The notes under the pieces were generated by a model that saw only the letters and a list, made by a program, of their open reading frames with translations, did not search any database and was not told where the DNA came from. A DNA stretch of 44,451 nucleotides from a virus, in the IMG/VR virus record IMGVR_UViG_3300020419_001420, positions 1 to 44,451 of that record, one strand, 5' to 3'. Position numbers and translations under genes: made by a program. Below are positions 2,503-32,614 of the stretch, piece after piece; positions within the stretch are counted from its first letter, which is position 1, and each line of letters begins with the position of its first letter.

Positions 2503-2850
2503 ATGGATGAATCATTAGAGAAAGCACTTGATTTTTCTAATTATATGATTACCTTCAATAACCAAAAAAGGATTATCCATGAAGAATACATGGAGGATTT
2601 GGTTGTATATCAGTTTGGAGGCAAGTTTACAGTAACCAAAGAACTAATTTCTTTTGTAGGCAACATACTTGATCAAGATAATTCTAAAACTGTCCTAATA
2701 GACGATAACAACACTCCTATTCTGATTGAAGACCTATCAACATTTATGTATGATATCAAAGGTTGCTACGGAACAGCTTCTGCAAAGTATTATGAGAAAT
2801 ATAAGAAGATGGTTAGCAAACGAAATGTGGAAAGTATAGTTGATGTCTAA
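2503..2850 (+). CDS. conserved-type phage hypothetical protein, 115 aa
   Basis: Small soluble acidic protein (MDESLEKALDFSNYMITFNN...) with no family I can name. It has a mixed alpha/beta pattern and no transmembrane segment. The start is supported by an AGGAG ribosome site at 2491-2495, seven bases before the ATG. Its 3' end overlaps the first glycosyltransferase-like gene by 8 bases. It therefore marks the join between the tail-fibre genes and the accessory island, and could belong to either. Confidence 0.6.
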   Translation: MDESLEKALDFSNYMITFNNQKRIIHEEYMEDLVVYQFGGKFTVTKELISFVGNILDQDNSKTVLIDDNNTPILIEDLSTFMYDIKGCYGTASAKYYEKYKKMVSKRNVESIVDV

Positions 2851-3676
2851 TGGTGTATTATGTTTTGCTAATAACAATGGAAAAGTTGACTATTTAAAAC
2901 AAGCAATATTTCTAGCTACCCGTGTTAAAAAATATTTACAACTACCTATTTCATTAGTGACATCAAATAAAAAAGACTTTGATCATTTGTATTCAGATCA
3001 ACGCGATTTATTTGACAAAATAATAGAAAGTGACAGTCAAGATCATAATTCTAAACGATATTATGACGGAAGTAATCACTACGAAACCTTACAATTTAAA
3101 AATGCAGGCCGTATAGACAGCTTTGATATTACACCCTATGATAAAACACTAGTATTGGACACTGACTATGTAATTTGTAATGAAAGTTTTAAAAAAGCAT
3201 TTGAGTCGGTAGCAGATTTTCAAATTTATAGACATGGAATAGATTTGTGTGATTGGAGAAAGTTACCAGAATTTAAATATATCAATGATACAGGTATAGC
3301 TTTTTATTGGGCTACTTGTTTTTGCTTTGCAAAAACCAAAGAAACAAAGATATTTTTTGATTTGATGAAACATATAAAAAATAATTGGCTTCACTATTCA
3401 CAAGTTTACAATTTAGGAAGCAGAAATTTTCGTAATGATCATATTTTCAGTATAGCTATTCATATAATGAACGGATTTCAAGAAGGAGAATGGGCAAAAA
3501 CTTTACCAGGAACAATGTTTTATACTCTTGATAGAGATTTAATTTATAAGTTAAATGAAGATAACTTGACTTTCTTGGTTGAAAAGGAAAATAGATCAGG
3601 AGAATACACTTTGGTGTCAACAAATAAATCTAATGTTCATGTGATGAATAAATTTAGTTTGGCAAGAGTATTATGA
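2843..3676 (+). CDS. glycosyltransferase-like protein (GT-A, DxD), 277 aa
   Basis: Probable nucleotide-sugar-dependent glycosyltransferase of the GT-A fold. A Rossmann-like N terminus (GVLCFANNNGKVDYLKQAI) leads to ITPYDKTLVLDTDYVI, in which Asp-Thr-Asp at residues 106-108 is the metal/nucleotide-sugar DxD motif. The next gene is a paralogue with the same TPY..T-VLDTD block. I start at the ATG at 2843 and not at the in-frame TTG three bases upstream. The gene overlaps its upstream neighbour by 8 bases and the next gene by ATGA. It begins the long plus-strand island. The acceptor is unknown: a virion protein, host glycan or small molecule are all possible. Confidence 0.7.
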   Translation: MSNGVLCFANNNGKVDYLKQAIFLATRVKKYLQLPISLVTSNKKDFDHLYSDQRDLFDKIIESDSQDHNSKRYYDGSNHYETLQFKNAGRIDSFDITPYDKTLVLDTDYVICNESFKKAFESVADFQIYRHGIDLCDWRKLPEFKYINDTGIAFYWATCFCFAKTKETKIFFDLMKHIKNNWLHYSQVYNLGSRNFRNDHIFSIAIHIMNGFQEGEWAKTLPGTMFYTLDRDLIYKLNEDNLTFLVEKENRSGEYTLVSTNKSNVHVMNKFSLARVL

Positions 3677-4515
3677 AGCAAGGTTACTTAATAGTTGCTA
3701 GTGGTAAAGATTATGTAAAGCAGGCTTGTCTGTGTGCTATGAGTATAAAACATACACAAACAATCAAAAACGTTTCAATTGTTACTAATGATACAGTTCC
3801 TAAAAAATATCAATCTTTATTTGATAAAATTATTGAAATACCTTGGATTGTAGATGGAGACGATACTTATTATTTGACCGAACAAAGATGGAAAGCATTT
3901 CATGTCACTCCATATAAGGAAACAATAGTATTAGATACTGACATGTTATTTTTAAGTGACGTAAGTCATTGGTGGAATATACTTGATAGATATGATGTAT
4001 TTTTAACAAGTAAAGTTTTTACTTATAGAAATCAAGAAGTTACAAGTGATTTTTATAGAAAAGCATTTGTTGAAAATAAATTACCTAATTTATATTGTGG
4101 TATACATTATTTTAAACAAAACGACATAGCACTGAATTATTATAAACAATTAGAGAATGTATGCCATAATCATATAGATTATTATAACAGATTTGTAAAA
4201 AAATCAAAACCAAAAGTTACTAATGCAAAAGGAGAAACATTTATATTATCTAGTATGGATATAAATCATGCAATTACGTCTTTACATTTAAATTTAAAAA
4301 ATATTACAAACAATTCTGTAAATTTTATTCACATGAAAAGTAAAGCACAGAATGTAGATAGTATAGGATTAGATTGGACGAACAATATTCCTTATTATAT
4401 TACAGATGATTTAGAATTAAAAGTTGGAAACTATTTACAAAAAGGCGTTTTCCATTATACTGAAAACAAGTTTTGTAAAGATACGATAAAAAAGTACGAA
4501 AGCAAAATTCTATGA
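3673..4515 (+). CDS. glycosyltransferase-like protein (GT-A, DxD), 280 aa
   Basis: Second GT-A-like glycosyltransferase, paralogous to the gene before it. The N terminus YLIVASGKDYVKQACLCAMSI is followed at about residues 79-94 by TPYKETIVLDTDMLFL, with the DTD metal-binding motif at 88-90. Length and block order match the upstream paralogue. The ATG overlaps the upstream TGA (ATGA), and its own TGA overlaps the next ATG the same way, so translation is probably coupled. The C-terminal half is very AT-rich and Asn/Lys-rich. The sugar donor and acceptor cannot be told. Confidence 0.7.
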   Translation: MKQGYLIVASGKDYVKQACLCAMSIKHTQTIKNVSIVTNDTVPKKYQSLFDKIIEIPWIVDGDDTYYLTEQRWKAFHVTPYKETIVLDTDMLFLSDVSHWWNILDRYDVFLTSKVFTYRNQEVTSDFYRKAFVENKLPNLYCGIHYFKQNDIALNYYKQLENVCHNHIDYYNRFVKKSKPKVTNAKGETFILSSMDINHAITSLHLNLKNITNNSVNFIHMKSKAQNVDSIGLDWTNNIPYYITDDLELKVGNYLQKGVFHYTENKFCKDTIKKYESKIL

Positions 4516-5060
4516 AACATGTAAAAGTAGAAATAAAACAATATATTTCTTTTGATCAAAAGACAGGAAAAATTTTTGGTATAGGACCTTCTATAATAGA
4601 AGGTAAAAATTATATAGAAGCGACAGAAAAAGAAGTTGAACCAATTAAAACACTTAAAGCAAAAATGACAGATTATTTGGTTGTGTACAATAGAAAAATA
4701 AAACAATTTAAACTTAAGAAAATTACAGTTTTAGAAGAAGATACTCTGTATCAAAAAATTCCAAAATTATCTAAAAAATCTGATTACGATGTATTATTAA
4801 ATATTGACAAAAAGGCTAAAAAATGTTATATTAATACAAATAATGATCTAATCGATATTATGGAAAAAACAAATATCGATATAAACAAACAGGTTACTTT
4901 TAGTTTTACAAAAAAAGGTGATCCACATATTCTTTATGACATGGTTACTTTTAATTTAATGGAAAAAACTAAAAAACCTTTGAAAATAAAAAACAAATAT
5001 GATATCTACACAAAGGTTGATATGGCTAGTTGTGTGTATGGAGAAGTAAATGAAAGTTAA
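4512..5060 (+). CDS. unknown lysine-rich protein, 182 aa
   Basis: I do not recognise this protein. It is Lys-rich and largely beta/alpha, with a start-like segment VEIKQYISFDQKTGKIFGIG and a central VVYNRKIKQFKLKKI. No signal peptide, membrane helix or catalytic motif is visible. The coding DNA is conspicuously AT-rich even for this window. It overlaps the genes on both sides (4 bases upstream, 11 downstream), so it is expressed with the glycosyltransferase-like genes. It could be a carrier or scaffold for them, but nothing in the sequence shows this. Confidence 0.55.
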   Translation: MKHVKVEIKQYISFDQKTGKIFGIGPSIIEGKNYIEATEKEVEPIKTLKAKMTDYLVVYNRKIKQFKLKKITVLEEDTLYQKIPKLSKKSDYDVLLNIDKKAKKCYINTNNDLIDIMEKTNIDINKQVTFSFTKKGDPHILYDMVTFNLMEKTKKPLKIKNKYDIYTKVDMASCVYGEVNES

Positions 5061-5970
5061 AATTGCAGAACTTGATATTATCTATTTAAGTTATGATGAG
5101 CCTAATGCAGAAAAAAATTATGCTGACTTGCTTACAAAGGTTCCTTGGGCAAAAAGAGTCCATGGAGTAAAAGGGTCAGATGCGGCCCATAAAGCATGTG
5201 CAAGATTAAGTGACACAGATAGATTTGTAACAGTAGACGGCGATAATACTGTAAGGCCGGAGTTTATAAATCAAGTTTTAGACTTTGACGAACATACAGA
5301 TTTAGCAAGTAGCGTTATAAGTTGGTGTGGAAGAAATACAATAAACGGTTTACTTTACGGAAATGGTGGACTAAAATGTTGGCCTAAAGAATTTGTTTTA
5401 AATATGAAAACTCATGAAAATGCAGAAGCTGATAATCCACATGCACAGGTTGATTTTTGTTGGGACATACAATATATTCAACAGAATAGTTGTTATAGTG
5501 ATGTGCATAATAACGAAACACCACACCAAGCCTGGAGAGCTGGTTTCAGAGAAGGCGTAAAGATGGCTCTAGATAGAGGAGTTAAACCATCACATGAAGA
5601 ATTTTTAAAAGGACATTGGAAAAATTTACATAGACTTTGGATCTGGTTAATGGTAGGATCAGATATAAAAAATGGATACTGGGCTATTGCAGGAGCAAGA
5701 GAAGGATTAGCAATGACAATGTTAACAGATTGGGATTATGTAAATGTAAGAGATTTTGATCATCTAAATGAACTTTGGGCAGATAGAGATGAAATGCCAG
5801 AAGATGTATTACATACAGAAATATTTAATCATGGTAGTGATTTAGTGGATAAATTAGGAATACCTATTGCTGTGCAACCACTTAATGAAGAACAGAGTGC
5901 CTTTTTTAAAACTGTGTATCAAAATCCAGCTAGGAGTAGCAGTCAACAATTTGTGATTGACGTGGAATAA
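5050..5970 (+). CDS. GT-A-like glycosyltransferase family protein with DGDN motif, 306 aa
   Basis: Probable GT-A-type glycosyltransferase of a phage family marked by the N-terminal block LDIIYLSYDEPNAEKNYADL and, at residues 63-66, Asp-Gly-Asp-Asn (RFVTVDGDNTVRP), which sits where GT-A enzymes carry the DxD motif. A C-terminal domain after about residue 190 (WKNLHRLWIWLMVGSD) is shared in shortened form with the paralogue at 7333. The ATG lies inside the end of the previous gene. The two paralogues flank a radical-SAM gene, which suggests joint work on one substrate. The glycosyltransferase label rests on the fold-like pattern and is not certain. Confidence 0.6.
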   Translation: MKVKIAELDIIYLSYDEPNAEKNYADLLTKVPWAKRVHGVKGSDAAHKACARLSDTDRFVTVDGDNTVRPEFINQVLDFDEHTDLASSVISWCGRNTINGLLYGNGGLKCWPKEFVLNMKTHENAEADNPHAQVDFCWDIQYIQQNSCYSDVHNNETPHQAWRAGFREGVKMALDRGVKPSHEEFLKGHWKNLHRLWIWLMVGSDIKNGYWAIAGAREGLAMTMLTDWDYVNVRDFDHLNELWADRDEMPEDVLHTEIFNHGSDLVDKLGIPIAVQPLNEEQSAFFKTVYQNPARSSSQQFVIDVE

Positions 5971-5971
5971 A

Positions 5972-7345
5972 ATGACATTTGAATGGCAAGAACCTGAACA
6001 TGTTCTAGATAAGTTGAACTCTGTTGGCTGTGGCTTTTGCCTAGCGAAATGGACACAGGTTACTATGCACCTTGGATCAGGACTTACACATAGTTGTCAT
6101 CACCCTAAAGCACATCCGATAGATTTAAATGATCTTGCTACAAACCCTGGAGCTTTACACAACACAGGATTCAAAAAAAACGTTAGAAAACAAATGCTCA
6201 GAGGTGAACGTCCTGGAGAATGTGATTACTGTTGGCGTATTGAAGACAATACAGGTATGTACAGTGACAGAACTTGGAAAAGTAGGGATCCTTTTAGTTG
6301 GCCAGATTTTGATTCTATATCGAAAATGACCGGAGATGAAGATGTGTATCCAAGATATGTTGAAGTTAGCTTTAGTAATGTTTGTAATTTTAAATGTGGG
6401 TATTGTGGCCCAGCGTTTAGTAGTAAATGGGGAGATGAAATAAAAAAAGATGGCCCATATACTTTCAGCATGATTAATTGGAGATATAATCAACCTACAG
6501 ATCATCAAGCACAGATTCCACAAAGGGAACATAACCCATACATAGAAGCTTTCTGGAAGTGGTTTCCAGAAGCAGTAAAACACATGCACACCTTTAGAAT
6601 TACTGGTGGCGAACCTTTAATGAGTAAAGATACTATCAAGGTAATGGATTATTTACTTGAGAATCCACAACCTAACTTAGAGCTATCAATCAACAGTAAT
6701 GCATGTCCTCCAGGAAATAAATGGGTTGAATTCGTAGATAAAGTTAAAATTTTAGAAGATAAAAAATGTATAAAACAATTTATATTATTTGTTAGTGCAG
6801 AAAGCAAAGGAGCACAAGCCGAGTACAATAGGTTTGGTATGGATTGGAAAATGTTTACAAATAATGTTGATTACTTTTTAAAAACAACAAAGGGTATTTG
6901 TAGTTTTATGAGTGCATTCAATGTTTTAAGTATTCCTAGCTTTTTTAATTTTTTGCAGTACGTATCAGATTTAAAAGATCAATTCGTAATTAAGGAACCA
7001 CAATTTCAAAGAGTAATTATAGACACGCCATACGTAAGAAGTCCTGGATTCTTAGACGCAAAAATTGCCACACACGATCTTGTAGAGAAATACCTATATC
7101 CTTGTATTCCCTTTATGCAAAAAAATAGTTTTACCGATAGAGAAGTTCAAAAGATGGATAGAATAGTAAAAGACTTAGATGTAAGGAATAACAAACCAGA
7201 AGAGTTTGAAAGAGAAGCAGTTGAAGGAAGACGCATGTTTTATGAATGGATTCAACAATATGACAAAAGACGTGGCACTGATTTTTTAAAAACATTTCCT
7301 GAAATGAATAAATTTTATGAGGATTGTAAAGCATGTATGATATAA
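5972..7345 (+). CDS. radical SAM protein with N-terminal twitch-like domain, 457 aa
   Basis: Radical S-adenosylmethionine enzyme. The CxxxCxxC [4Fe-4S] motif is C138, C142, C145 (SNVCNFKCGYCGP), followed by an S-adenosylmethionine-binding FRITGGEPLM block. Before this core lies a Cys-rich domain (C20, C23, C42, then C84 and C87 in RPGECDYCW) that matches the N-terminal twitch domain of the 'twitch domain-containing radical SAM' proteins; in that class it should hold an auxiliary iron-sulfur cluster. Such enzymes mostly modify peptides or proteins, but the substrate here is unknown. I start at ATG 5972 because the longer frame begins with a TTG inside the previous gene. It lies between two paralogous glycosyltransferase-like genes. 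Confidence 0.82.
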   Translation: MTFEWQEPEHVLDKLNSVGCGFCLAKWTQVTMHLGSGLTHSCHHPKAHPIDLNDLATNPGALHNTGFKKNVRKQMLRGERPGECDYCWRIEDNTGMYSDRTWKSRDPFSWPDFDSISKMTGDEDVYPRYVEVSFSNVCNFKCGYCGPAFSSKWGDEIKKDGPYTFSMINWRYNQPTDHQAQIPQREHNPYIEAFWKWFPEAVKHMHTFRITGGEPLMSKDTIKVMDYLLENPQPNLELSINSNACPPGNKWVEFVDKVKILEDKKCIKQFILFVSAESKGAQAEYNRFGMDWKMFTNNVDYFLKTTKGICSFMSAFNVLSIPSFFNFLQYVSDLKDQFVIKEPQFQRVIIDTPYVRSPGFLDAKIATHDLVEKYLYPCIPFMQKNSFTDREVQKMDRIVKDLDVRNNKPEEFEREAVEGRRMFYEWIQQYDKRRGTDFLKTFPEMNKFYEDCKACMI

Positions 7346-8019
7346 TCTTTATAAGTTATTACGAACCAAACGCAGAGAAAAATTTTAAAAATCTATATCA
7401 AAGATTTAATCAAGTAGGATTGTATGGAGAAAGAGTAAAACGTGTTACCAATATAAAAGGAATTCATAACGCACATGTTGAAGCGGCAAAAAAATCAAGC
7501 ACAGATTATTTTTTTGTTGTAGACGGTGATGCTGTGATAGTAGATGATTTTGATTTTTCTTATACTACCAAGGAAAAAGATGTTGTACATGTTTATAGAT
7601 GCATGAATCCTATTAATGATTTAGTATACGGATACGGAGGAGTAAAACTGTTTCCTACAACTTTAACAATTAAGATGGATACTAATACGAATGACATGAC
7701 TACAAGTATATCAAAAAAATTTAAATTAATTAATGAAATATCAAATATTACAGCATTTAATACAGATCCGTTTAACACATGGAAAAGTGCTTTTAGAGAA
7801 TGTGCAAAATTATCAAGCAAAACTATAGACAGACAAAAAGAGGAGGAAACAAATGAAAGACTTAAAACTTGGACAACCGTGGGACACGATAGATTATATG
7901 GCAAATACGCTTTGGCAGGCGCTACCGCTGGTATGGAGTTTGGCGTTTCTAGCAGGGCTAATCTGGGGCTAATAAATGACTTTGATTGGTTAAAGGAGCA
8001 ATTTAATGCAAACACATAA
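7333..8019 (+). CDS. GT-A-like glycosyltransferase family protein, short paralogue, 228 aa
   Basis: Shorter paralogue of the protein at 5050. It shares the opening block (YDIIFISYYEPNAEKN) and the Asp-Gly-Asp motif at residues 64-66 (FFVVDGDAVIVDDF), and the later GGVKLFP and TAGMEFG elements. About 80 residues of C-terminal sequence are missing relative to the paralogue, yet both ends look natural, so this is a shorter family member and not a broken gene. The ATG overlaps the upstream radical-SAM gene by 13 bases. Probable sugar transferase on the same unknown acceptor. Confidence 0.58.
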   Translation: MYDIIFISYYEPNAEKNFKNLYQRFNQVGLYGERVKRVTNIKGIHNAHVEAAKKSSTDYFFVVDGDAVIVDDFDFSYTTKEKDVVHVYRCMNPINDLVYGYGGVKLFPTTLTIKMDTNTNDMTTSISKKFKLINEISNITAFNTDPFNTWKSAFRECAKLSSKTIDRQKEEETNERLKTWTTVGHDRLYGKYALAGATAGMEFGVSSRANLGLINDFDWLKEQFNANT

Positions 8020-8842
8020 AATTTTAGATAGGATAGAATTACTTTTTCCTTTGAATAGCCAAGTAGCAGATTTACGTAGATCATTTATAGATAAAGACTT
8101 ACATAGTATTTTTAGGCTTATGAATGATAAAAATAAAGAACATCTAAGAAAAATAATTCTTGAAAACAATCAATGGAGCCTATGGAAAATTCTAGATAGT
8201 TATGTAGATACAAGATTTATACAAGCTCTAAAATCTTTTGAGGTGAATGAAATAAAATATGATGAAGATTGTTTAAGCAAAGGACAAATCAAAAGCAAAA
8301 TGTGGCTTATACAAGAATTGAAAAATTTGAATTTGGATCTTGGTGTTGTGTTCTTGTGTGCAGGTTGGTATGGAACTTTAGCTACAATGATTTTTGAAAG
8401 TAAAATAAATGTTACTAAAATAAGAAGTTTTGATATTGATAAATCTTGTAGACAAATTGCAGAAATTTTTAACAAGCCTTGGGTGTTAGAGGACTGGCTG
8501 TTTAAACCAGTAACACAAGATATTCATGATATAGATTTTAATTCGCATGACTATACTGTAACAAGAGCAGACGGTACACAATGTTCTTTGACTGATACAC
8601 CAGATACAGTTATAAACACCAGCTGTGAGCATATTGAGAATTTTTCTCAATGGTATGACAAAATACCAAAAGGAAAACTTGTTGTGTTGCAATCTAATGA
8701 TTATAGTGATGTGATAGAACATGTTAACTGTAGCATGGATGAAAAAAGTTTTTCGGAACATGCACCTATGGAAACAACACTTTATTTAGGCACATTAGAT
8801 CTAGATAAGTACAGTAGGTTTATGAAGATCGGAATAAAATAA
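8006..8842 (+). CDS. class I S-adenosylmethionine methyltransferase-like protein, 278 aa
   Basis: Probable methyltransferase. The core starts near residue 114 with VVFLCAGWYGTLATMIF, a variant of glycine-rich motif I. Next comes IRSFDIDKSCRQIAE, where D143 is the acidic residue expected to bind the S-adenosylmethionine ribose. A later segment, PDTVINTSCEHIENFSQWYDKIPKGKLVVLQ, has the usual strand-4/strand-5 layout. The first about 110 residues form a separate helical domain. The start (ATG 8006) overlaps the previous gene by 14 bases. Motif I is divergent (CAGWYG instead of GxGxG), so activity is probable but not certain. Neighbours point to modification of the same substrate as the glycosyltransferases. 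Confidence 0.68.
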   Translation: MQTHKILDRIELLFPLNSQVADLRRSFIDKDLHSIFRLMNDKNKEHLRKIILENNQWSLWKILDSYVDTRFIQALKSFEVNEIKYDEDCLSKGQIKSKMWLIQELKNLNLDLGVVFLCAGWYGTLATMIFESKINVTKIRSFDIDKSCRQIAEIFNKPWVLEDWLFKPVTQDIHDIDFNSHDYTVTRADGTQCSLTDTPDTVINTSCEHIENFSQWYDKIPKGKLVVLQSNDYSDVIEHVNCSMDEKSFSEHAPMETTLYLGTLDLDKYSRFMKIGIK

Positions 8843-9415
8843 GTGGCAAAATTTGCAAGAAACTACAGTGAATCTAAAAACTCAATAGAAGTTTTTAAAT
8901 CCCATGTTCATAAAAAAGTTAGTTTACAGCTAAGAAGAGGTCGACCTTTAGATCAAGCATGGTTTAATAACTATAATACTTTAGCAAAAACTAACAAGCA
9001 TTTGCCAAAACTTTTATCTTTAATTTCAGATACAGAATTTACCATGGAAAAGGTTGATGTTAAAGAAGATTTAGAAACTTATTTTTATCATTCCACTACC
9101 CCATATGGTAAGAAGTTTTTCAGTGAAGGATCAGAACTTAAAGTTGTATGTGAACACAATGATATGCAGATTAAAATATTAGATGCATTTAATACTTGTT
9201 GGATACAAGGTTTAAGATATTCACAGGAAAAACATCAATCGAAGAATTTTTTTGTGCATGGTGATATGAGCTTAAGAAATTTCGTAATAACAAAACAAAA
9301 CAATATTATGCTGTTAGATCCGGATGCATATAGTTGGCAAGGTAATTATATTTTTGCAAAACATTTTGCTCAGTACACACAGTTGTATGGAAATGTAATT
9401 AAAAACATGGCATAA
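8843..9415 (+). CDS. small kinase-like (aminoglycoside-phosphotransferase fold) protein, 190 aa
   Basis: Reduced kinase-fold protein. A catalytic loop reads HGDMSLRNFVI: H139, catalytic-base D141, and N146 for the metal. A DPD motif (D159-P-D161, IMLLDPDAYSW) takes the place of the DFG metal-binding motif, as in aminoglycoside-phosphotransferase and choline-kinase-type enzymes. FTMEKVD at 66-72 looks like the hinge after the N-lobe. The N-lobe is only about 65 residues and I cannot assign the usual ATP-binding Lys. The start is GTG at 8843, directly after the previous stop; no ATG is available nearby. It may phosphorylate a sugar, small molecule or protein in the island pathway. Confidence 0.62.
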   Translation: MAKFARNYSESKNSIEVFKSHVHKKVSLQLRRGRPLDQAWFNNYNTLAKTNKHLPKLLSLISDTEFTMEKVDVKEDLETYFYHSTTPYGKKFFSEGSELKVVCEHNDMQIKILDAFNTCWIQGLRYSQEKHQSKNFFVHGDMSLRNFVITKQNNIMLLDPDAYSWQGNYIFAKHFAQYTQLYGNVIKNMA

Positions 9416-15936: not shown

Positions 15937-15938
15937 AA

Positions 15939-21401: not shown

Positions 21402-21407
21402 ACTACA

Positions 21408-24147: not shown

Positions 24148-24584
24148 TGCTTGAATACGTGGCTATATTTTTTGGTTGGACATTTATACTGTACTGGTGT
24201 CACAGGCTTTGTCATTATATTCCTTATCTAAAAGAAGTACATTGGCATCATCATAGATACGTAACTGGACAACAGCCTAAATGGATGTGGCAAAATATAT
24301 TTTTATTCAGTGATGATTGGATGAGTACACTTGACATAATCATTACAGAAATTATTCCTACACTTATATTCTGTTATTTTACTGGACATTGGTGGATATG
24401 CGGTGTATATTATATATGGACTGCTTTTATACAAGAATGGGTAGAACATAATCCTAAATTTGATATATTACCATTTAGTGCAGGAAAAACTCATCTAGTG
24501 CATCATAAAGATTGGAGATCAAATTATTCCTTATTTTTTCCTATTTGGGATATAGTTTTTAACACATACAGGAAAGCTAAATGA
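24135..24584 (+). CDS. sterol-desaturase/fatty-acid-hydroxylase family membrane protein, 149 aa
   Basis: Small diiron membrane oxygenase of the fatty-acid-hydroxylase family: HRLCH (23-27), HWHHH (36-40), VEHNP and HLVHHKDW (120-127), plus the C-terminal PIWDIVFNTY end characteristic of the family. Hydrophobic stretches are near 6-22 and 67-95. It hydroxylates or desaturates a lipid in members of known function. Two starts are possible: ATG 24135, or ATG 24147 (residue 5), which overlaps the upstream TAA by one base; translation coupling favours the latter. At 149 residues it is short for the family but keeps all the His boxes. Confidence 0.8.
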   Translation: MEKLMLEYVAIFFGWTFILYWCHRLCHYIPYLKEVHWHHHRYVTGQQPKWMWQNIFLFSDDWMSTLDIIITEIIPTLIFCYFTGHWWICGVYYIWTAFIQEWVEHNPKFDILPFSAGKTHLVHHKDWRSNYSLFFPIWDIVFNTYRKAK

Positions 24585-25519: not shown

Positions 25520-26387
25520 TTTCCTTACCATTTTCTAAGAATCTGATTGTATCTTCAACATTAAGGAATATTTGATTTTCTCTATATCTATGTTCCATGC
25601 CGTTAATTATAAAATCTATTTTTTCACACCCTTGATATTTTGGAAAGTAAATTAGGTCATTCTTCCAATTCTTTCCATAGAATATTGGTTTGATAAAAAG
25701 GTCCCAGTAATTAATTACACTGATAGGTTCTTCACCCAAAAAAGACAAACCTTCAATAGCATAATATTCCCAGGAATAGCACATAGAGGTCAGTATATTG
25801 TCCTTTAGAATGCTGAGTAGTATATGTTCATCTTTCTCGAAAGCCACCACTGTACGGGCTTTATTTCGCTGTTTATAGGCCCTTAAACGGGCATACTCAA
25901 CACTATTAGCTGTTTCTAATATGTAGTGTTTTCCCTCGTGTACATACGGATCAGGACCATTAAATCCTTCAACCAAAGTATATTTTTTTGGAAGTTTTTC
26001 TAAGAAAATGGAATGTAAAATTTGATTAGGAGGAATCTGTAAGCGTTCAGATTCACTTAAAATTTTATCTTTTTCCCTGTACGGATCAATCTCTATTTTT
26101 ATTAGATCCATATTGTGTTTCTCTACACATTTCTTTACGTTTTCATATTCGTTATCGTTATATGTAGGCATGTGTAAAAATGCACAAGGAATATCAATAC
26201 CTGAGTCTTTGAAAGCAAGATATGTAGCCTGGCTATCTATGCCTCCGCTGAAACTTAATATTAAATTTTTGTAGTGATTGTTTATAAAAGAAGCACGTTC
26301 GGAAAACTCTTGTCTAACAGAGCCTACCGAACGTGAACAAGGTTTTAAGTCTATATAGAATTTATTGTCAATAAATCCATAAGACAT
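25479..26387 (-). CDS. PP-loop ATPase, 302 aa
   Basis: Second PP-loop protein, on the opposite strand. The motif is LILSFSGGIDSQ (SGGIDS at 47-52), and the N terminus YGFIDNKFYIDLKPCSRSVG is a beta-rich extension. Later blocks (YYAIEGLSFLGEEP) differ from the other PP-loop proteins, so this is not a recent duplicate. ATG at 26387 is preferred, 4 bases after the stop of the DUF2061 gene. A GTG at 26417 would extend it by 10 residues into that gene. It is the last gene of a three-gene minus-strand operon. Confidence 0.66.
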   Translation of the reverse strand: MSYGFIDNKFYIDLKPCSRSVGSVRQEFSERASFINNHYKNLILSFSGGIDSQATYLAFKDSGIDIPCAFLHMPTYNDNEYENVKKCVEKHNMDLIKIEIDPYREKDKILSESERLQIPPNQILHSIFLEKLPKKYTLVEGFNGPDPYVHEGKHYILETANSVEYARLRAYKQRNKARTVVAFEKDEHILLSILKDNILTSMCYSWEYYAIEGLSFLGEEPISVINYWDLFIKPIFYGKNWKNDLIYFPKYQGCEKIDFIINGMEHRYRENQIFLNVEDTIRFLENGKETKRYWQRNPVQSP

Positions 26388-26391
26388 ATCA

Positions 26392-26895
26392 TTATGCAGT
26401 AGCTTTCTTTCTACCACGCTTTGGCTTATCGTTCAACGATGGATCAATAGCCGCATTAAGCATTGCTTTTGCCCATGGTACAATATTCCAAATACGTTCG
26501 TGTGCGTAGTACAAGAACATGTTTACTGCTGTTGCCAGTCCTGCAAAGATTGTAGCGGCACCCCAACTACCTGTTACGATGAATGGAATGAAGAAGTTAC
26601 TTGACGTAATGACTACTCTCCAAGTGATCATCTTTAACGCTGATCTTGGTTCACGATCATCGAAAGCTCTATCTTCATTTTCCTTTCGTAAGGCATTGAA
26701 ATAGTTCCAAGCTCGTTCATGTAGCCAATATAACGTACTGTTTATTACAGTCGCCCACCCGGCGATTTTTAGTCCAACAAGTAAACTACCTGTTGCAAGA
26801 AAACCATTGACTATATGAGAGATAGTTAATAGCACTCGCCACGACACCATCTTTGCAATAGTACGCGGATGCTTTTCTGTAAATTTTCCGAACAT
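26392..26895 (-). CDS. tandem DUF2061 membrane protein, 167 aa
   Basis: Predicted inner-membrane protein made of two DUF2061 units (about residues 9-64 and 86-137). Each has the family pattern: a RTIAKMVSWR or SALKMITWR start, two hydrophobic helices, then NxxLYWxHERxWN. The C terminus is basic (KPKRGRKKA), probably cytoplasmic. The function of DUF2061 is unknown. It has the strongest ribosome site in the island (AAAGGAG, 7 bases before the ATG) and lies between two PP-loop genes. It may anchor the neighbouring enzymes to the membrane, but this is only a guess from position. Confidence 0.85.
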   Translation of the reverse strand: MFGKFTEKHPRTIAKMVSWRVLLTISHIVNGFLATGSLLVGLKIAGWATVINSTLYWLHERAWNYFNALRKENEDRAFDDREPRSALKMITWRVVITSSNFFIPFIVTGSWGAATIFAGLATAVNMFLYYAHERIWNIVPWAKAMLNAAIDPSLNDKPKRGRKKATA

Positions 26896-26925
26896 TAATT
26901 CATCTCCTTTAGTTAACTATGTATA

Positions 26926-28110
26926 TTATTTACTCCACTTGAGTTCAAGGGGGTTTATTTCTGGCTCCATAGGTCCTAACTTGTAGTTGTATGCAAAAGT
27001 TTCCAAACCATCGTCAAAGCCATGCGTTCGATTCACAAAACGGCTAGCATGTTTTCGGACATAATTTATACCTTCCTTCCAAATATTATGGTGTTTGGTT
27101 CCTTTATGTCCTTCTATATACCATGAATCAAATTCTGAATACCAATCTAATGTTGCTTTATCTGCCTGCCAATAGTCATCTTTCCAAGTAGTATAAAGCA
27201 AAGGTCTTAATTCTCTTTCGTGTACTAGTCTAAATAGATCAGCAGTTAAATTTTTGTGAAACCAATAAGGTTGTTTTTTTGGATTAAGTTCTAACCAATT
27301 TTTGATTATGTATGCTTGTTTACACAGGATATCCACACCTTCTGGTGACCAATAAAAGTATTCGACAGTAGAATTATCATACTCACTAATATGATTTTCT
27401 ATGGTAATTATATTGCATGATCTATCATTGAATCTAATGTAAAAATTATTATTGCTGTGGATAAATGTCCTTGGTTTTTCTATACCTAATAGTAAAGCAA
27501 TTTTCTTGCTTTTATCAAATTGTTTCCTTACACCATCAAAATGTATATAATTGAAACGTGTTACATTCAAAGGATTCAAGCCTTCTTTCTTATCCATTAT
27601 CCAACTGGCATCTCCTACTGACAACCAAGAATCAAAAAGATAATCAGTCATATCTAGCACAGTGATTTTTGTCTTGGGAGATCTTTTTTCTATTTCCTTA
27701 AGTCTTGGAATTGTTTGTAGGTAATGTTCAGCCGCGGCATTCTTAGGATCAGTGTTATTCTTATCTATAATAGTGTGTTTTGAATTTGCTTTTTCCATTG
27801 TGTTTACAATTATTTCATCTATCAGCAAACCTTGTCTAATAAAACTTTCCGCAATTTGATTACTGTCTGACCCTCCACTAAAACTTAACATAATATAGTC
27901 ATAGCTTTCTCGCAGTTGTCTTGCTCTTAGATCATATAATTCATCTAAACTTTTTTCTGGTTCTATGTGCCAGGAATATTTTTCAAAAATTTCATTATTA
28001 AAATGCCAAACTACATCTTGATTATTTGTTTGAGCGTAAATACAAGCCTTAATTTTACTGTCAAATTCTATGTCTCCAACAGTATAGTATCCAAGTTTCT
28101 TGTTGATCAT
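26926..28110 (-). CDS. PP-loop ATPase, 394 aa, paralogue of the one at 31418
   Basis: PP-loop protein with SGGSDS at 78-83 (YDYIMLSFSGGSDSN). The N-terminal domain opens KKLGYYTVGDIEFDSKIKAC and is shared with the paralogue at 31418, as are the RPRT-like GIEKPRTFI, FYWSPEG and WYSEFDSWY blocks. The paralogue's matching N terminus decides the start: ATG 28110, not the longer frame to 28170, which would overlap the divergent gene. Its SGG-motif is close to PAPS-reductase-like phage proteins, but I see no reductase Cys motif at the C terminus. It heads the minus-strand operon running to 25479. Confidence 0.72.
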   Translation of the reverse strand: MINKKLGYYTVGDIEFDSKIKACIYAQTNNQDVVWHFNNEIFEKYSWHIEPEKSLDELYDLRARQLRESYDYIMLSFSGGSDSNQIAESFIRQGLLIDEIIVNTMEKANSKHTIIDKNNTDPKNAAAEHYLQTIPRLKEIEKRSPKTKITVLDMTDYLFDSWLSVGDASWIMDKKEGLNPLNVTRFNYIHFDGVRKQFDKSKKIALLLGIEKPRTFIHSNNNFYIRFNDRSCNIITIENHISEYDNSTVEYFYWSPEGVDILCKQAYIIKNWLELNPKKQPYWFHKNLTADLFRLVHERELRPLLYTTWKDDYWQADKATLDWYSEFDSWYIEGHKGTKHHNIWKEGINYVRKHASRFVNRTHGFDDGLETFAYNYKLGPMEPEINPLELKWSK

Positions 28111-28137
28111 ATTGTACTTATCACCATAAAACACACA

Positions 28138-28145
28138 CATAAATA
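28138..28145 (+). promoter_or_regulatory. late-promoter-like CATAAATA
   Basis: CATAAATA, running into a second overlapping ATAAATAT, lies in the 38-base divergent gap between the minus-strand PP-loop operon and the plus-strand flavoprotein gene, only 3 bases before the ATG at 28149 (6 before the ATG at 28152). This fits the NATAAATA late motif, but the transcript would be nearly leaderless, so the site is tentative. Confidence 0.35.
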
Positions 28146-28148
28146 AAT

Positions 28149-29081
28149 ATGATGAATACAAAAATCCCAATCATAGCCGCTTCAATGAATCAAGTATCTG
28201 ATGCCAATTTGGCTATAGCTTGCCAACAAGCAGGTATATTACCTAGCATAAGTTTTTTAAATTTTATTGATAAAACGACTCACAACATTGATGTCAAAGG
28301 ATTTTGTGATGAAGTAAAAAAGTACAATAATGAAACAGGTAGTAGCAACTTACTGATAAGTATAAGCACAAAAAGCCTACTTTTTAAAAGTATTAGAAAA
28401 ACTTTAAAGGATATTTTTAAACAAATTAATTACAGTCATTTAGAAATTATTCCTTTAGGAGATATAAATTTTACACATCCTGACTTTGAAAAAAATTACA
28501 AAGACAGATTAGATAGTTTGAAAGAAGTCTTGTTAGAATTAGAGGTGCCTTTTGTATATTGGAAAAGTGTTGGATTAAAGGGTGCAATAAAAGTATTAGA
28601 GTATTGTAATTTTGTAAATGGCATTATATTAAAAGGGGAAGATGGTGCCGGAACAACTCCTAAGTCTTATGGAAATTTAGAAGAAAATATCAATTATGTA
28701 AAAAAACACTTTCCTAATATAGAAGTAGTAGCAAGTGGCGGTATTAACACGTATGAAGAAATAAAAAAATATTTAAATATAGGAGCAGATAAAGTAGCTG
28801 TTGGCACTCCTTTTGCCGCTTCTTTAGAAAGTAAAATATCACATGATTCAAAGATGCAACTTGTAAAAAATAATAGTTTAGATCTTCAACGTATTAGTGA
28901 ACATCAAAACGGTATAATGTTCAAAAGATTAAAGGAAGATGATATGAACAATACTTTTAGCCTTCAACAGGGAATGATATCTCCGCAACAAGGACATCTT
29001 TTTGCAGGCAAAGGTATCGATTATATTGATGACATATATACTGTAAACACTATAGTGGAAAAATTATGGCCGATGAAATGA
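28149..29081 (+). CDS. nitronate monooxygenase/2-nitropropane-dioxygenase-like flavoprotein, 310 aa
   Basis: FMN-binding TIM-barrel protein of the nitronate-monooxygenase family. The N terminus IPIIAASMNQVSDANLAIAC-QQAG matches the family's opening PxxxAxMxxVSxxxLAxAxxxAG pattern. GEDGAGTTPKSYG near residue 180 and VVASGGINTYEEIKKYLNIG, followed by ADKVAVGTPFAAS, form the phosphate-binding and final barrel strands. Family members oxidise nitronates or reduce enoyl thioesters (FabK-like). The FabK-like possibility is notable next to desaturases. ATG 28149 or the adjacent 28152 could start it. The next radical-SAM gene overlaps its end by 16 bases. Confidence 0.75.
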   Translation: MMNTKIPIIAASMNQVSDANLAIACQQAGILPSISFLNFIDKTTHNIDVKGFCDEVKKYNNETGSSNLLISISTKSLLFKSIRKTLKDIFKQINYSHLEIIPLGDINFTHPDFEKNYKDRLDSLKEVLLELEVPFVYWKSVGLKGAIKVLEYCNFVNGIILKGEDGAGTTPKSYGNLEENINYVKKHFPNIEVVASGGINTYEEIKKYLNIGADKVAVGTPFAASLESKISHDSKMQLVKNNSLDLQRISEHQNGIMFKRLKEDDMNNTFSLQQGMISPQQGHLFAGKGIDYIDDIYTVNTIVEKLWPMK

Positions 29082-30466
29082 AATTTAATTTAGAAAGTTT
29101 CTGTCCCGAAGCGTGGAATCAGATAGAGATAGACGCTCAAGGAGATTATAAAATATGTTGTTTAGCAAATTTTGATAAAGACTTTGGCATGGCCTTAGAT
29201 AAAGATGGTAAGGTTATGAATGTGAAAACGCATACCATTGAAGAAGCAATGAACAGTGAAACTCACAAACAACATAGAAAAGAAATGAGCCAAAACATAA
29301 AACCTAAAAGATGTAGAAATTGTTTTGACAGTGAAGAAAGCACAAGAAATTTAAAAGGCTTTGGTAAACACAAAGATAAATTTGCACATCTTGGGATAAG
29401 CAAACGCCAAAGGGTTTTAAGAAAAACTACTAGAGATGTACCTGAATACACTAAAGTAGATGCGGCACATTTGGTTACAAGTGCTGATGGAACTTTAGAT
29501 ACTTCAAAATCAAAAGTGGTCAACCTAGACATGCGTTTTGGAAATCTTTGCAATCAAAAATGTATAATGTGTAGTCCACAACATAGTAATCAATGGTACG
29601 AAGATTGGGTAGCAATAGGTTATGGTGCTCCGCAATACAATAGAAATCAAGGAGTGTATCGAAAAGGTAAAGCCAGAGAATTCAGTTTTTATTATGATGA
29701 ACATGATAGAATAAAAATGGAAGGTATGGAACCTTGGTGGGAAAGCAATGATTGGTGGGATCGATTTGATTCAATGGCACCTAATTTAAGATACATTTAT
29801 TTTACAGGTGGCGAGCCTTTAATTGTTCCACAGATGCAACAATGTTTAGATAGACTTATCAAAGGTGACTTTGCAAAAAATATACAATTAAGATATGATA
29901 CAAATCTAAGTGTAATTAATCAAAAGGTTATAGATAAATGGAAGCATTTTAAAGAAGTATTTCTTTGCATCAGTGTAGATGATACTGGCGAAAGATATAA
30001 CACTATAAGATATCCCGGAAATTTTGATAGGATAGAAAAAAACATTGTCACACTGAAAAACAATGGTATGGATATAGAATATGTTAGCACTTGTATTGGA
30101 ATGGCAAGTCCTTATGCTGTACAGAGAATTTACGAGTTTGGAAAGAAATATGATATTGAAACAAATTTTAGATTCTTGGAAGGCCCTAATTGGTTAGATA
30201 TAAGAAACTATCCTCGTAAAGCAAAAGAAGAAATAATAGAAAATTTAAAAAATTATTCAGATGATGTAAAATATACTAGATGGGCTATAGCAGAAGTCAA
30301 GTTATTAGAAAAATACTTAGATCATAGTGAAGAAAAACACTTGCATGAGTTCATAAGGGTAATGGATATTCTTGACAAGCAAAGATCAACAGATTGGCGC
30401 AAAGCCATGCCTGATGTGGTAGACTTATTTAAAAAATATTGTCCCCATATATACAAGGAGAAGTAA
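29066..30466 (+). CDS. radical SAM protein with N-terminal twitch-like domain, 466 aa
   Basis: Sixth N-twitch radical-SAM protein. Cys-rich domain: C13 (SFCPEAWNQIEIDAQGD), C31-C32 (KICCLANF), C83 and C86 (RCRNCFDSEES); core C162, C166 and C169 (GNLCNQKCIMCSPQH); IYFTGGEPLIVP. It is most like the protein at 11681 in length and in the long insertion between core motif and GGEP (WWESNDWWDRFDSMAPN). The end AAGGAGAAG doubles as the ribosome site for the oxygenase-like gene that starts directly after its stop. Confidence 0.82.
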   Translation: MADEMKFNLESFCPEAWNQIEIDAQGDYKICCLANFDKDFGMALDKDGKVMNVKTHTIEEAMNSETHKQHRKEMSQNIKPKRCRNCFDSEESTRNLKGFGKHKDKFAHLGISKRQRVLRKTTRDVPEYTKVDAAHLVTSADGTLDTSKSKVVNLDMRFGNLCNQKCIMCSPQHSNQWYEDWVAIGYGAPQYNRNQGVYRKGKAREFSFYYDEHDRIKMEGMEPWWESNDWWDRFDSMAPNLRYIYFTGGEPLIVPQMQQCLDRLIKGDFAKNIQLRYDTNLSVINQKVIDKWKHFKEVFLCISVDDTGERYNTIRYPGNFDRIEKNIVTLKNNGMDIEYVSTCIGMASPYAVQRIYEFGKKYDIETNFRFLEGPNWLDIRNYPRKAKEEIIENLKNYSDDVKYTRWAIAEVKLLEKYLDHSEEKHLHEFIRVMDILDKQRSTDWRKAMPDVVDLFKKYCPHIYKEK

Positions 30467-31072
30467 ATGTTTTACTATAAATTAGGAAAACTTAATGAAG
30501 TTGTAGTGCAAGAAATGTTACAAGCAATTCTTTTAAAAAGTGAACCTAGTAAAGGATACCATTGGATAGAATTTGACGACAATTTAAATCAGATGTGGAA
30601 TAACATTTGGAAAAATAAAGAATTAAAAGTACAACGTTGGAATGATAAATGGATACAAAAAGCATTTTATAGTCCTGTTGGTAAAGGTTGGAAAATACAT
30701 AAAGATGGTATTAATTGTAAACTGGCATTAAATATTTCATTACAATCTAACGATTCTGATTGGGTAAGATGGTATGATGAAGAATTTATAAATCAAGTTG
30801 CAAATATCGACATGTCAAAAGGTAACCAAGGAAAAGGACATAGTAGAAATATACCAATAGACGAGTATCATGATTTGCCTTTTATAGAAGAATTAAAAGT
30901 AGAAGATGGTGATGTATATCTGGTCAACACAGATGTTTTCCATAGTTTTTATTGTGGCGGCCCAAAGGATAGAGTGATTGTGCAAACTAAATTTGAAGGC
31001 AATCCTGATTGGGATACTGTATTAGAAAGTGTAAAGAAGGAAAACTTTAGTCATCAAAGCCTTGTGAAATAA
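30467..31072 (+). CDS. 2OG/Fe(II)-oxygenase-like protein, 201 aa
   Basis: Compact dioxygenase-like protein with H78-x-D80 (GWKIHKDGINCKLALNISL), H159 (VYLVNTDVFHSFYCGGPKD) and R169 on a VIVQTKF strand, the usual iron triad and 2OG-binding Arg. It starts right after the radical-SAM stop and uses the AAGGAG at the end of that gene. Its 3' end overlaps a convergent minus-strand gene by 26 bases. It repeats the radical-SAM plus oxygenase pairing seen earlier in the island. Confidence 0.66.
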   Translation: MFYYKLGKLNEVVVQEMLQAILLKSEPSKGYHWIEFDDNLNQMWNNIWKNKELKVQRWNDKWIQKAFYSPVGKGWKIHKDGINCKLALNISLQSNDSDWVRWYDEEFINQVANIDMSKGNQGKGHSRNIPIDEYHDLPFIEELKVEDGDVYLVNTDVFHSFYCGGPKDRVIVQTKFEGNPDWDTVLESVKKENFSHQSLVK

Positions 31073-31355
31073 GAATAATTCCCCAGTCTGTATTATGCTG
31101 TTTTTCTTCTTCTAAAGATTCTTGCCATTCACTTGATGCTAAAATATTTGCCATGTCAGATGCTGAAGTGTCATCCCAATTACTTTCAAGTGTCATTGTA
31201 AGTTCACTAGAATCATCGTAAGTCATTTCACGAAATTTAGTACACTTTCCTGTGTCTTCGTAATTAGTTTTAATCCATGTTTTAAATTTATCACTTGGAG
31301 TAAACCAAGGAGCATCTGTATGAGGTCTCATAAAATTACGTTTATATACTTTCAT
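31047..31355 (-). CDS. unknown acidic protein, 102 aa
   Basis: I do not recognise a family. The protein is acidic and Asp/Glu/Ser-rich after a basic start (MKVYKRNFMRPHTDAPWF). It has no membrane helix or known motif. The ATG is preceded by a good ribosome site (GTAGGAGAAC) and a GATAAATA late-type promoter at 31381-31374, which supports a real, separately expressed gene. It overlaps the convergent oxygenase-like gene by 26 bases. Confidence 0.6.
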   Translation of the reverse strand: MKVYKRNFMRPHTDAPWFTPSDKFKTWIKTNYEDTGKCTKFREMTYDDSSELTMTLESNWDDTSASDMANILASSEWQESLEEEKQHNTDWGIILISQGFDD

Positions 31356-31373
31356 TTGCTGTTCTCCTACTAT

Positions 31374-31381
31374 TATTTATC
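31374..31381 (-). promoter_or_regulatory. late-promoter-like GATAAATA
   Basis: GATAAATA on the minus strand, 18 bases upstream of the 102-residue gene's ATG, with an AGGAGAAC ribosome site between. It matches the motif upstream of the tail-fibre gene at 34074 and the gene at 38933. The plus strand of this same gap has only a weaker CTAAATAA before the PP-loop gene at 31418. Confidence 0.5.
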
Positions 31382-31417
31382 ACTAAATAATTATAATACA
31401 ATATTTTAGGATACTCC

Positions 31418-32614
31418 ATGAAAATACCGCACAAACAACTTGGTTATTACACATGTGATAGCAAAATATTTACCTCCAAAATCCATGCTTGTATACATGC
31501 CACACAAACAAAAAAGGATCTACAGTGGCATTTCAATGATGAAGTTTTTGATAACTTTCCTTGGCACATAGAGCCACATGAAACATTAGATGATTTATAT
31601 TTTCAAAGAGCAAAACAACTAAGAGAAAAATATGATTATATCTGTTTAGCCTTTAGTGGCGGTGGAGATAGTAATAATATTTTAGAAGCTTTTTTAAGAC
31701 AAGGATTATTCATAGACGAAGTGGTGACAAATGTCATGGAAGATCTAAATCATATGACCACTGTGAATCCATACGAAATAAACAACTGGAATGAAGGTGC
31801 TGAATACAAATTACAAACTGAAGGAAGATTAAAAGAGCTTCACAAAAGATCTCCTAATACAAAAATTAGTGTGATTGATTTAAGTACTGGACTATTCAAT
31901 TTATTCAATAGTTACGGAGATGCTGGCTGGATAGAAAAGACAAGGGAAAGAATGAATCCAAGTGGATTCATGCGTCATAACTTTTTACACATGGCTGAAA
32001 TACGTAAAAGATTTGACAAAGATAAAAAGATATGCATGTTATTAGGAATTGAAAAACCTAGAACTTATATAAAGGGTAATACATTTAAAATGTGCTTTAG
32101 TGATAAAGCATGTAATATCGCTACTGTAAGCGAATTTGTAGAAGATTATGATAATACTGCTATAGAATATTTTTATTGGTCTCCAGAAGGAGCACCAATT
32201 ATTGCAAAACAATGCCATGTAATAAAAAAGTTTATAGAAGGAAATCCTAATTATATGAGATACTGGAAACCTAAAAACATAGGTGAAATTTGGAGTAACC
32301 ATAGAAAATATCATGAAAGGATTTTACGTCCATTAATTTACAATTCAACTTGGGCTGATAATTTTTGGCAAGCCAATAAAAGTACAAAAGACTGGTATAG
32401 TGAAATAGATGATTGGTTTTGGACTAACCATAAAGATTCAAAAGAACATGCAATCTGGAGGGCAGGGTTGGATTACGTAAAAGAAAATGCTAAAGACTGG
32501 ATGATGCCCGGTGATGTAGAAGGACTTAAAGGATTTTTAAAAGCCTATGAAATAGGAGAAATGAATCCTATAAAGTTAGAATTACCTACTAATAATGCTG
32601 TTCTAGTTGATTAG
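31418..32614 (+). CDS. PP-loop ATPase, 398 aa, paralogue of the one at 26926
   Basis: PP-loop protein with SGGGDS at 80-85 (YDYICLAFSGGGDSNN). It matches the minus-strand gene ending at 26926 along its length: LGYYT start, WHFNDEVF, WHIEPHETLDDLY, GIEKPRTYI, EYFYWSPEGAPI, HERILRPLIYN and DWYSEIDDWF. The family likely adenylates a substrate; no C-terminal reductase Cys motif is visible. It is the last gene of the island and its stop overlaps the stop of the convergent tail-fibre gene by 4 bases. Confidence 0.72.
   Translation: MKIPHKQLGYYTCDSKIFTSKIHACIHATQTKKDLQWHFNDEVFDNFPWHIEPHETLDDLYFQRAKQLREKYDYICLAFSGGGDSNNILEAFLRQGLFIDEVVTNVMEDLNHMTTVNPYEINNWNEGAEYKLQTEGRLKELHKRSPNTKISVIDLSTGLFNLFNSYGDAGWIEKTRERMNPSGFMRHNFLHMAEIRKRFDKDKKICMLLGIEKPRTYIKGNTFKMCFSDKACNIATVSEFVEDYDNTAIEYFYWSPEGAPIIAKQCHVIKKFIEGNPNYMRYWKPKNIGEIWSNHRKYHERILRPLIYNSTWADNFWQANKSTKDWYSEIDDWFWTNHKDSKEHAIWRAGLDYVKENAKDWMMPGDVEGLKGFLKAYEIGEMNPIKLELPTNNAVLVD

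Follow-up and report, generated by a model that had tools for sequence, protein, structure and literature searches.

Gene content of the island

The window analyzed here is a whole 44,451-base viral record from IMG/VR (IMGVR_UViG_3300020419_001420), and its subject is an island of enzyme genes at positions 2840 to 32614, between fiber-type genes, that encodes nine radical S-adenosylmethionine (rSAM) enzymes. Comparison with related phage contigs and bacterial genomes resolves the island into a conserved core of rSAM, glycosyltransferase (GT), and methyltransferase-like (MT) genes with exchangeable cassettes between them, and a counterpart of this core is present in chromosomes of Bdellovibrionota.

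PF04055 matches fall at nine places between 6365 and 30097, seven of which exceed the curated cut-off, and all nine proteins carry the CX3CX2C motif. Six of them (rS1, rS3, rS4, rS5, rS7, and rS9) exceed the cut-off of the NCBIfam family NF033640, “twitch domain-containing radical SAM,” and such twitch enzymes combine N-terminal auxiliary-cluster cysteines with CX3CX2C. In rS2, GNxGD stands where GGE is usual, which may mark a distinct variant of SAM binding. Pfam cut-offs are also passed by two FA_desaturase proteins, one FA_hydroxylase protein, and one nitronate-monooxygenase-type flavoprotein. Four proteins carry an SGGxDS PP-loop, with weak Pfam matches for PP1 and PP2 only. A first-pass annotation had listed nine rSAMs, three diiron membrane enzymes, four PP-loop proteins, and a flavoprotein, and all of these are confirmed by Pfam, NCBIfam, or motifs.

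The remaining labels of that annotation are consistent with motif or fold in part, with weak or no Pfam matches. The GNAT protein scores slightly under its Pfam cut-off, MT2 is likewise under cut-off, and the match of the kinase-like protein KIN is weak. Among six candidate 2-oxoglutarate (2OG)-Fe oxygenases, only OX4 has a Pfam match, below cut-off. A scripted search found the H-x-D/E...H...R pattern in OX1, OX4, OX5, and OX6; the partial motif in OX2 and OX3 was seen by eye and does not match the scripted pattern. Weaker Pfam support and mostly consistent motifs leave the labels oxygenase, kinase, GNAT, and methyltransferase putative. GT1 to GT4 have no Pfam match in the window protein scan, and the structure of GT4 was therefore modeled. 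The AlphaFold2 model (mean predicted local distance difference test score, 91) retrieves 45 PDB entries at E ≤ 1e-3, almost without exception GT-A-type enzymes, among them WrtF, SunS, ppGalNAcT, and the PBCV-1 capsid GT; fold neighbors in a viral library agree, and GT4 is predicted to be a GT-A-fold glycosyltransferase. The genes had been described as nearly all overlapping, which holds for most of them (by 1 to 91 bases), with gaps of up to 62 bases elsewhere. Four island genes lie on the minus strand (25479-26417, 26392-26895, 26926-28170, and 31047-31355). The features of the island and its fiber flanks are as follows.

19..26 (+) TATAAATA, T4-late-promoter-type motif, 28 nt before fibA; putative promoter
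55..1536 (+) fibA, tail-fiber-type, C-terminal Peptidase_G2/IMC domain (Pfam over cut-off; PHROG tail fiber; conserved flank)
1553..2467 (+) fibB, fiber-type, left module edge (full-length alignment in phages and one Bdellovibrionales chromosome)
2503..2850 (+) o3, 115 aa, conserved, no assigned function, always between fibB and GT1 (alignment; island conservation)
2840..3676 (+) GT1, glycosyltransferase-like, core (conserved position; putative class)
3673..4515 (+) GT2, glycosyltransferase-like paralogue of GT1, core (clusters with GT1; phrog_1903)
4512..5060 (+) o6, no assigned function
5050..5970 (+) GT3, GT-A-like, core (fused to GT4 in some relatives)
5957..7345 (+) rS1, twitch rSAM, array (NF033640, 307 bits)
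7333..8019 (+) GT4, predicted GT-A-fold glycosyltransferase, core (AlphaFold2 model; PDB neighbors; Bdellovibrionota orthologues)
8006..8842 (+) MT1, methyltransferase-like, core (conserved in phages and Bdellovibrionota; no Pfam match)
8843..9415 (+) KIN, APH/fructosamine-kinase-like (weak Pfam match, below cut-off)
9415..10491 (+) rS2, rSAM, core (PF04055 over cut-off; 45-51% identity in Bdellovibrionota)
10488..11684 (+) rS3, twitch rSAM, array (NF033640, 230 bits)
11633..13096 (+) rS4, twitch rSAM, core anchor (NF033640, 416 bits; 53-60% identity in Bdellovibrionota)
13093..13989 (+) OX1, 2OG-Fe-oxygenase-like (H-x-D/E...H...R; no Pfam match)
13962..15188 (+) rS5, twitch rSAM, array (NF033640 over cut-off)
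15214..15936 (+) OX2, 2OG-Fe-oxygenase-like (partial motif by eye; no Pfam match; recurrent cassette)
15891..17063 (+) rS6, rSAM, core anchor (PF04055 over cut-off; Bdellovibrionota orthologues)
17050..17745 (+) OX3, 2OG-Fe-oxygenase-like (partial motif by eye; recurs beside OX2/rS6)
17747..18211 (+) MT2, methyltransferase-like (Methyltransf_23 below cut-off)
18121..19236 (+) rS7, twitch rSAM, array (NF033640 over cut-off)
19182..19826 (+) GNAT-like protein (slightly under cut-off)
19870..20631 (+) DES1, membrane fatty-acid-desaturase-type diiron enzyme (PF00487 over cut-off)
20628..21401 (+) DES2, membrane desaturase-type diiron enzyme (PF00487 over cut-off)
21408..22979 (+) rS8, B12-dependent-type rSAM (PF04055 over cut-off; weak B12-binding match)
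22976..23524 (+) OX4, Asp/Arg-hydroxylase-like (PF05118 below cut-off; HAD motif)
23521..24147 (+) OX5, 2OG-Fe-oxygenase-like (HLD motif)
24135..24584 (+) HYD, fatty-acid-hydroxylase-type diiron enzyme (PF04116 over cut-off)
24581..25519 (+) PP1, PP-loop protein (SGGLDS; weak NAD_synthase/QueC match)
25479..26417 (-) PP2, PP-loop protein (SGGIDS; weak Pfam match)
26392..26895 (-) DUF2061 membrane protein (PF09834)
26926..28170 (-) PP3, PP-loop protein (SGGSDS; clusters with PP4)
28149..29081 (+) nitronate-monooxygenase-type flavoprotein (PF03060 over cut-off)
29066..30466 (+) rS9, twitch rSAM, array (NF033640 over cut-off)
30467..31072 (+) OX6, 2OG-Fe-oxygenase-like (HKD motif)
31047..31355 (-) small open reading frame (ORF), 102 aa, no assigned function
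31418..32614 (+) PP4, PP-loop protein (SGGGDS)
32611..34074 (-) fibC, fiber protein with Mtd_N domain, right island boundary (PF18454 over cut-off; boundary conserved in several relatives)

A fixed core with exchangeable cassettes

We mapped the architecture over 12 phage contigs. From left to right, a giant tail protein, copies of fibA, fibB, o3, GT1, GT2, GT3, a variable segment, GT4, and MT1 are followed by a second variable segment, rS2, a third, rS4, the rSAM array, rS6, a fourth variable segment, and fibC in reverse orientation, with a VWA/AAA/exo/queE/folE block beyond it. Scattering of these genes over other loci in related phages, which the first-pass annotation had named as grounds for refutation, is not what is seen: relatives keep them in one place, flanked by the same fiber genes. 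The conserved core comprises o3, GT1 to GT4, MT1, rS2, rS4, and rS6, which serve as anchors in nearly every contig that spans them; o3, for example, is found in 11 of the 12 islands, and the twelfth is truncated. The giant tail protein measures 2750 to 5035 aa where seen whole. Some genomes carry GT3 and GT4 as one fused gene (G009:44853-47336 and L188:6486-8036), and GT4 often has a long N-terminal extension (541 to 969 aa in G001, G002, G003, G012, and G024); the 969-aa protein has no Pfam match.

Between these anchors the content varies widely, with diverged rSAM paralogues in the majority alongside oxygenases, desaturases, and sugar enzymes. The 575 island proteins form 192 clusters, 137 of them singletons, and the rS4-rS6 interval holds 3 to 16 genes. 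Each of the 12 contigs carries 9 to 23 rSAM genes, and NF033640 members alone number 3 to 21 per record in 26 records, one of which is a 5.5-kb fragment. In the 330-kb relative G001, rSAM genes make up 16 of 48 island ORFs versus 0 of 293 elsewhere (by a profile that leaves out QueE), so their density in the island is not a matter of chance. Differences between close relatives come down to single cassettes: the slot order is common to G034 and G022 (56-88% identity), with two extra rSAM genes in G022 (at 41038 and about 47.1 kb). Besides B12-type rSAMs and AMP-binding enzymes, the cassettes include Asp/Arg hydroxylases, 2OG oxygenases, DegT aminotransferases, epimerases, a carbamoyltransferase, and nitroreductases. 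Their best NCBIfam matches include LegC, PseC, LegB, dTDP-glucose dehydratase, GDP-fucose synthase, and NodU, and the deoxy-amino-sugar-type enzymes point to unusual sugars.

Paralogous rSAMs within a genome have a median identity of 29%, yet CX3CX2C is kept in all 187 island rSAMs, and an alignment of 32 diverse twitch paralogues shows no variation at C27, C45, C110, C113, C166, C170, C173, or GGE. Invariant cysteines at such divergence argue for selection for active two-cluster enzymes and for an array that diverged long ago under that selection, not one of fresh duplicates or decaying genes. Subfamilies of 119, 36, and 33 members, three in all and well diverged, are each headed by one of the core rSAMs. 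The profile and fold neighbors of rS4 are led, weakly, by the peptide- or protein-modifying rSAMs SkfB, SuiB, and anSME. Single-sequence searches found no solved relative of rS4 or PP4, and a profile search found none of rS6.

An abundant lineage of large marine phages

Searches of 50,697 isolate phage records by tblastn returned no match to GT4, MT1, or rS6, three remote matches to rS4, and four to rS2. In IMG/VR, by comparison, rS4 occurs at 80 viral loci at 70-86% identity, and relatives of rS6 lie on at least 553 stretches. Related contigs reach 330 kb (G001), and T4-type gp23 is encoded in three of them (G001, G004, and G007; PF07068, E = 5e-102 in G001); this evidence comes from relatives, as the capsid region lies outside the window. 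The right flank of the window (a VWA/AAA pair, an exonuclease, QueE, and FolE) has jumbo phages as its best DNA neighbors. The initial term “T4-like” is therefore right only in a broad sense, and the lineage is one of abundant, uncultured, large marine phages of the T4 superfamily. Contigs binned into metagenome-assembled genomes of Rickettsiales (MED657 bin, G037:C6) and Gammaproteobacteria (MED685 bin, G034:C3) are phages of this lineage that contaminate those bins, and both were set aside as phage contigs.

The VWA-like and AAA ATPase pair lies at 35674 to 38168 (phrog_1314 and phrog_1297; 42-81% identity in relatives), and the phrog_1314 name “HNH endonuclease” looks doubtful for a VWA-like protein. 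QueE (41094 to 41990), a tenth rSAM just beyond the island, and a FolE homologue (42650 to 43339) are kept in relatives and may form a 7-deazaguanine (preQ0-type) branch of DNA or RNA modification.

The core in Bdellovibrionota chromosomes

Two alignments of diverse twitch rSAMs (A2 and A3) were too variable for a scan of the collection, and a DNA motif was used instead. Its matches in genome contigs come mostly from Bdellovibrionota, in taxon counts that are no census because the motif is biased to members with CNLKCRMC. NF033640 proteins number 4 to 37 per genome, many of them clustered, in the 16 genomes examined, of which two include binned phage contigs; chromosomes of the Bdellovibrionota G027, G028, G036, and G040 carry up to 37 twitch rSAM genes, many in dense clusters. 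With rS6 as the query, 22 of 369 Bdellovibrionota genomes yielded orthologues (at 1e-80), while none turned up among 399 Pseudomonadota genomes searched at E ≤ 1e-60.

Bacterial rS6 is adjoined by rS4, rS2, GT4, GT3, and MT1. On a 936-kb contig (G028), rS6 (65% identity), rS2 (49%), rS4 (57%), GT4 (41%), and MT1 (47%) lie together with an array, flanked, as judged by eye, by prmC, murA, and serS on one side and mscL and gmhA on the other. The rSAM/GT/MT core thus exists in cells too, as a gene cluster of Bdellovibrionota, and its first description as a virus-encoded system is incomplete. In the rS4 tree, the 12 phage sequences form one clade (support, 100/100) whose sister is G029 (98/96), and this clade nests within bacterial diversity when the tree is rooted with paralogues. 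Long outgroup branches leave the direction of transfer likely rather than proven. Some bacterial rSAMs are 50-69% identical to phage array cassettes, so cassettes seem to have been exchanged between the two.

The G029 module extends to the fiber side of the phage island. It includes fibB (30% identity over the full length, E = 3e-24) and o3 (35%, E = 8e-20), arranged as fibB-o3-GT1-GT2-GT3 beside the core directly after pheT, and no other phage structural genes were seen there. The preceding genes, by eye, are trmD, rimM, pheS, and pheT. As a general feature of Bdellovibrionota, a fibB-o3 linkage was ruled out, with one convincing genome in 369.

Expression and compartment

Five of 10 distinct related loci have TATAAATA, the T4 late-promoter sequence, 24 to 27 nt upstream of fibB. 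None of 72 rS6, 45 GT4, or 24 GT3 genes is preceded by it, and among unassigned genes 15 of 397 are. Gaps in the window stay at or below 35 bases all the way from fibB to the GNAT gene, and from the late motif and this near-gapless left arm we infer late cotranscription with the fibers. Scans for sigma-70 promoters and terminators gave chance-level counts.

A simple hydropathy scan predicts no membrane segment in 548 of the 575 island proteins. The scan detected no flippase/polymerase or ABC exporter in the islands, and a single 10-segment protein is confined to one of them. A complete lipopolysaccharide or capsule pathway is therefore not encoded, and the chemistry is probably mostly cytosolic.

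What the island may do

We tentatively favor a cytosolic, late-expressed decoration whose putative substrate is a fiber or its glycan, a reading to which we give slightly less than an even chance. Surface or fiber decoration, the function first proposed for the island, is still the most plausible one, with its substrate a putative one, and it is supported by the late motif before fibB, the fibB-o3 pair in G029, the sugar cassettes, and the scarcity of membrane proteins. The left arm would be transcribed late together with fibB, and cytosolic GT1 to GT4 and MT1 would assemble a glycan or a modified side group. The radical steps that never vary could fall to rS2, rS4, and rS6, and strain-specific ones to the oxygenases and the paralogues of the array. 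The product might then be attached to a fiber protein (fibB or a neighbor) or to a fiber-bound glycan, so that cassette exchange would change the decoration and, with it, the fit to a receptor or recognition by the host.

Several observations weigh against this proposal. The fold matches of GT4 have low template modeling (TM) scores of just 0.30 to 0.47 (query), and those of rS4 are also low. Across the window, TATAAATA is not enriched (3 found versus 9.6 expected), and here it is absent before fibB and present before fibA instead. The membrane desaturases and hydroxylase suggest lipid substrates for some cassettes. The bacterial link to fibers depends on one contig, G029, which ends within the module and so may be chimeric. 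Furthermore, o3 is missing from 367 of the 369 Bdellovibrionota genomes, with a convincing match in G029 and one marginal match (E = 9e-4), which makes G029 one case, possibly of transfer back from a phage. Hypervariable regions next to T4-like phage fiber genes also hold unrelated metabolic genes.

Alternatively, the enzymes may alter the host surface during infection, in O-antigen or capsule sugars, and block superinfection by competing phages. Such a role was proposed for an analogous pelagimyophage island (PMC7029224), and it would suit both the deoxy-amino-sugar enzymes among the cassettes and the cassettes, up to 75% identical, that the SAR11 phage isolate Mosig carries in the same kind of island. 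We nevertheless regard it as unlikely, since flippase- or polymerase-like proteins are lacking, nearly all island proteins are without predicted membrane segments, and the late-type motif before fibB suggests expression at a stage when a surface change would come late.

A more doubtful explanation is that a hyperplastic region has gathered assorted auxiliary metabolic genes with no common product, the rSAMs boosting host metabolism. Timms et al. suggested a benefit to host metabolism for an interchangeable rSAM module (PMC2853527), and the many singleton clusters would agree with such an assortment. It is harder to reconcile with a fixed-order conserved core in phages whose enzymes co-cluster in Bdellovibrionota, and with rSAMs that are confined to the island and keep their catalytic cysteines throughout.

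It is improbable that the island is a natural-product pathway yielding a secreted signal or toxin, such as a peptide of the ribosomally synthesized and posttranslationally modified (RiPP) type or a sugar. The closest relatives of rS4 are the RiPP maturases SkfB and SuiB, and B12-type rSAMs and NodU-type and AMP-binding enzymes are among the cassettes, but a search of the gaps in bacterial core clusters for a precursor peptide gene found no conserved small ORF there, the window genes overlap almost throughout, and no exporter-like series of membrane proteins is evident. Hypermodification of DNA or nucleotides to protect the phage genome is about as improbable. Base hypermodification typically involves rSAM, oxygenase, GT, kinase-like, and PP-loop proteins, and here the PP-loop proteins are QueC-like with QueE and FolE nearby, but that pair sits outside the island in its own conserved context. 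This reading is also hard to square with the hypervariable make-up, the fibB/o3 link, and bacterial chromosomes that carry the core but no phage replication genes.

A wider and frankly speculative extension of the fiber-decoration reading, which we also regard as unlikely, is that combinatorial radical chemistry common to jumbo marine phages and Bdellovibrionota decorates the surface fibers of the attacker. A constant rSAM/GT core with up to about 20 swappable rSAM paralogues would then generate chemical, not sequence, diversity of receptor recognition. If fiber decoration is correct, phages could change their fiber-binding chemistry by cassette swaps, a route to host range invisible to comparison of fiber sequences alone. 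The locus also offers dozens of active-looking rSAMs of unassigned reaction, anchored by the conserved rS2, rS4, and rS6, and genetics may be possible on the cellular version in Bdellovibrionota chromosomes.

Comparison with known systems

The original statement that no known pathway has this inventory was overstated, as similar hypervariable islands occur in pelagimyophages (PMC7029224) and in the Campylobacter phages CP220 and CPt10 (PMC2853527). The host recognition cluster (HRC) of pelagimyophages is hypervariable, carries GT and rSAM cassettes, and has been read as modifying the O-chain (PMC7029224). Like the HRC, the island described here is large and hypervariable, adjoins the tail fibers of a T4-type phage, and holds GT and rSAM cassettes. 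The HRC, including that of Pelagibacter phage Mosig EXVC030M, adjoins VrlC and lies between VrlC and gp14. One flank of this island has the giant tail protein beyond fibA, and the other is fibC-VWA-AAA. Mosig VrlC and the giant tail protein gave no match by blastp, a method that could miss remote homology. Several Mosig cassettes are homologous to those of this lineage at 40-75% identity, including a desaturase (75%), an Asp/Arg hydroxylase (70%), and a dioxygenase (62%), and one run is in much the order of G022; the segments compared were G022:51-54.5 kb and G002:64572. Cassettes shared with an isolated SAR11 phage hint at shared hosts. Mosig differs in having three MoaA-like rSAM genes and no match to rS4, GT4, MT1, or rS6, and the pelagimyophage HRC literature describes neither a conserved core, nor an array of 9 to 23 rSAM genes, nor a link to Bdellovibrionota.

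In CP220 and CPt10, five rSAM genes, putative sugar-transferase genes, and an amidinotransferase lie near baseplate and fiber genes, and the rSAM module is swapped between near-identical phages (PMC2853527). Their similarity to the island is remote (23-32%), and the conserved core was not detected in them. A 183-kb T4-like marine genome, TARA_ERS488813_N000010, has 12 rSAM genes interpreted as Fe-S metabolism (PMC5332604), and by description alone it resembles these rSAM-rich large marine phages. NF033640, for which six window rSAMs qualify, is a subfamily without an assigned substrate and is uninformative on the pathway. Bdellovibrio uses phage-like mosaic adhesive trimer (MAT) fibers for prey recognition (PMC10769870), to which the fibB-like gene beside the core in one Bdellovibrionales chromosome may be likened by analogy. 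Full-text literature searches, with subscription papers mostly outside their scope, returned no description of the conserved core or of its occurrence in both phages and Bdellovibrionota. The locus is neither ordinary nor an artifact: it is a strong variant of the hypervariable fiber-side island, for which precedents exist, and its new part is the conserved core of cellular affinity.

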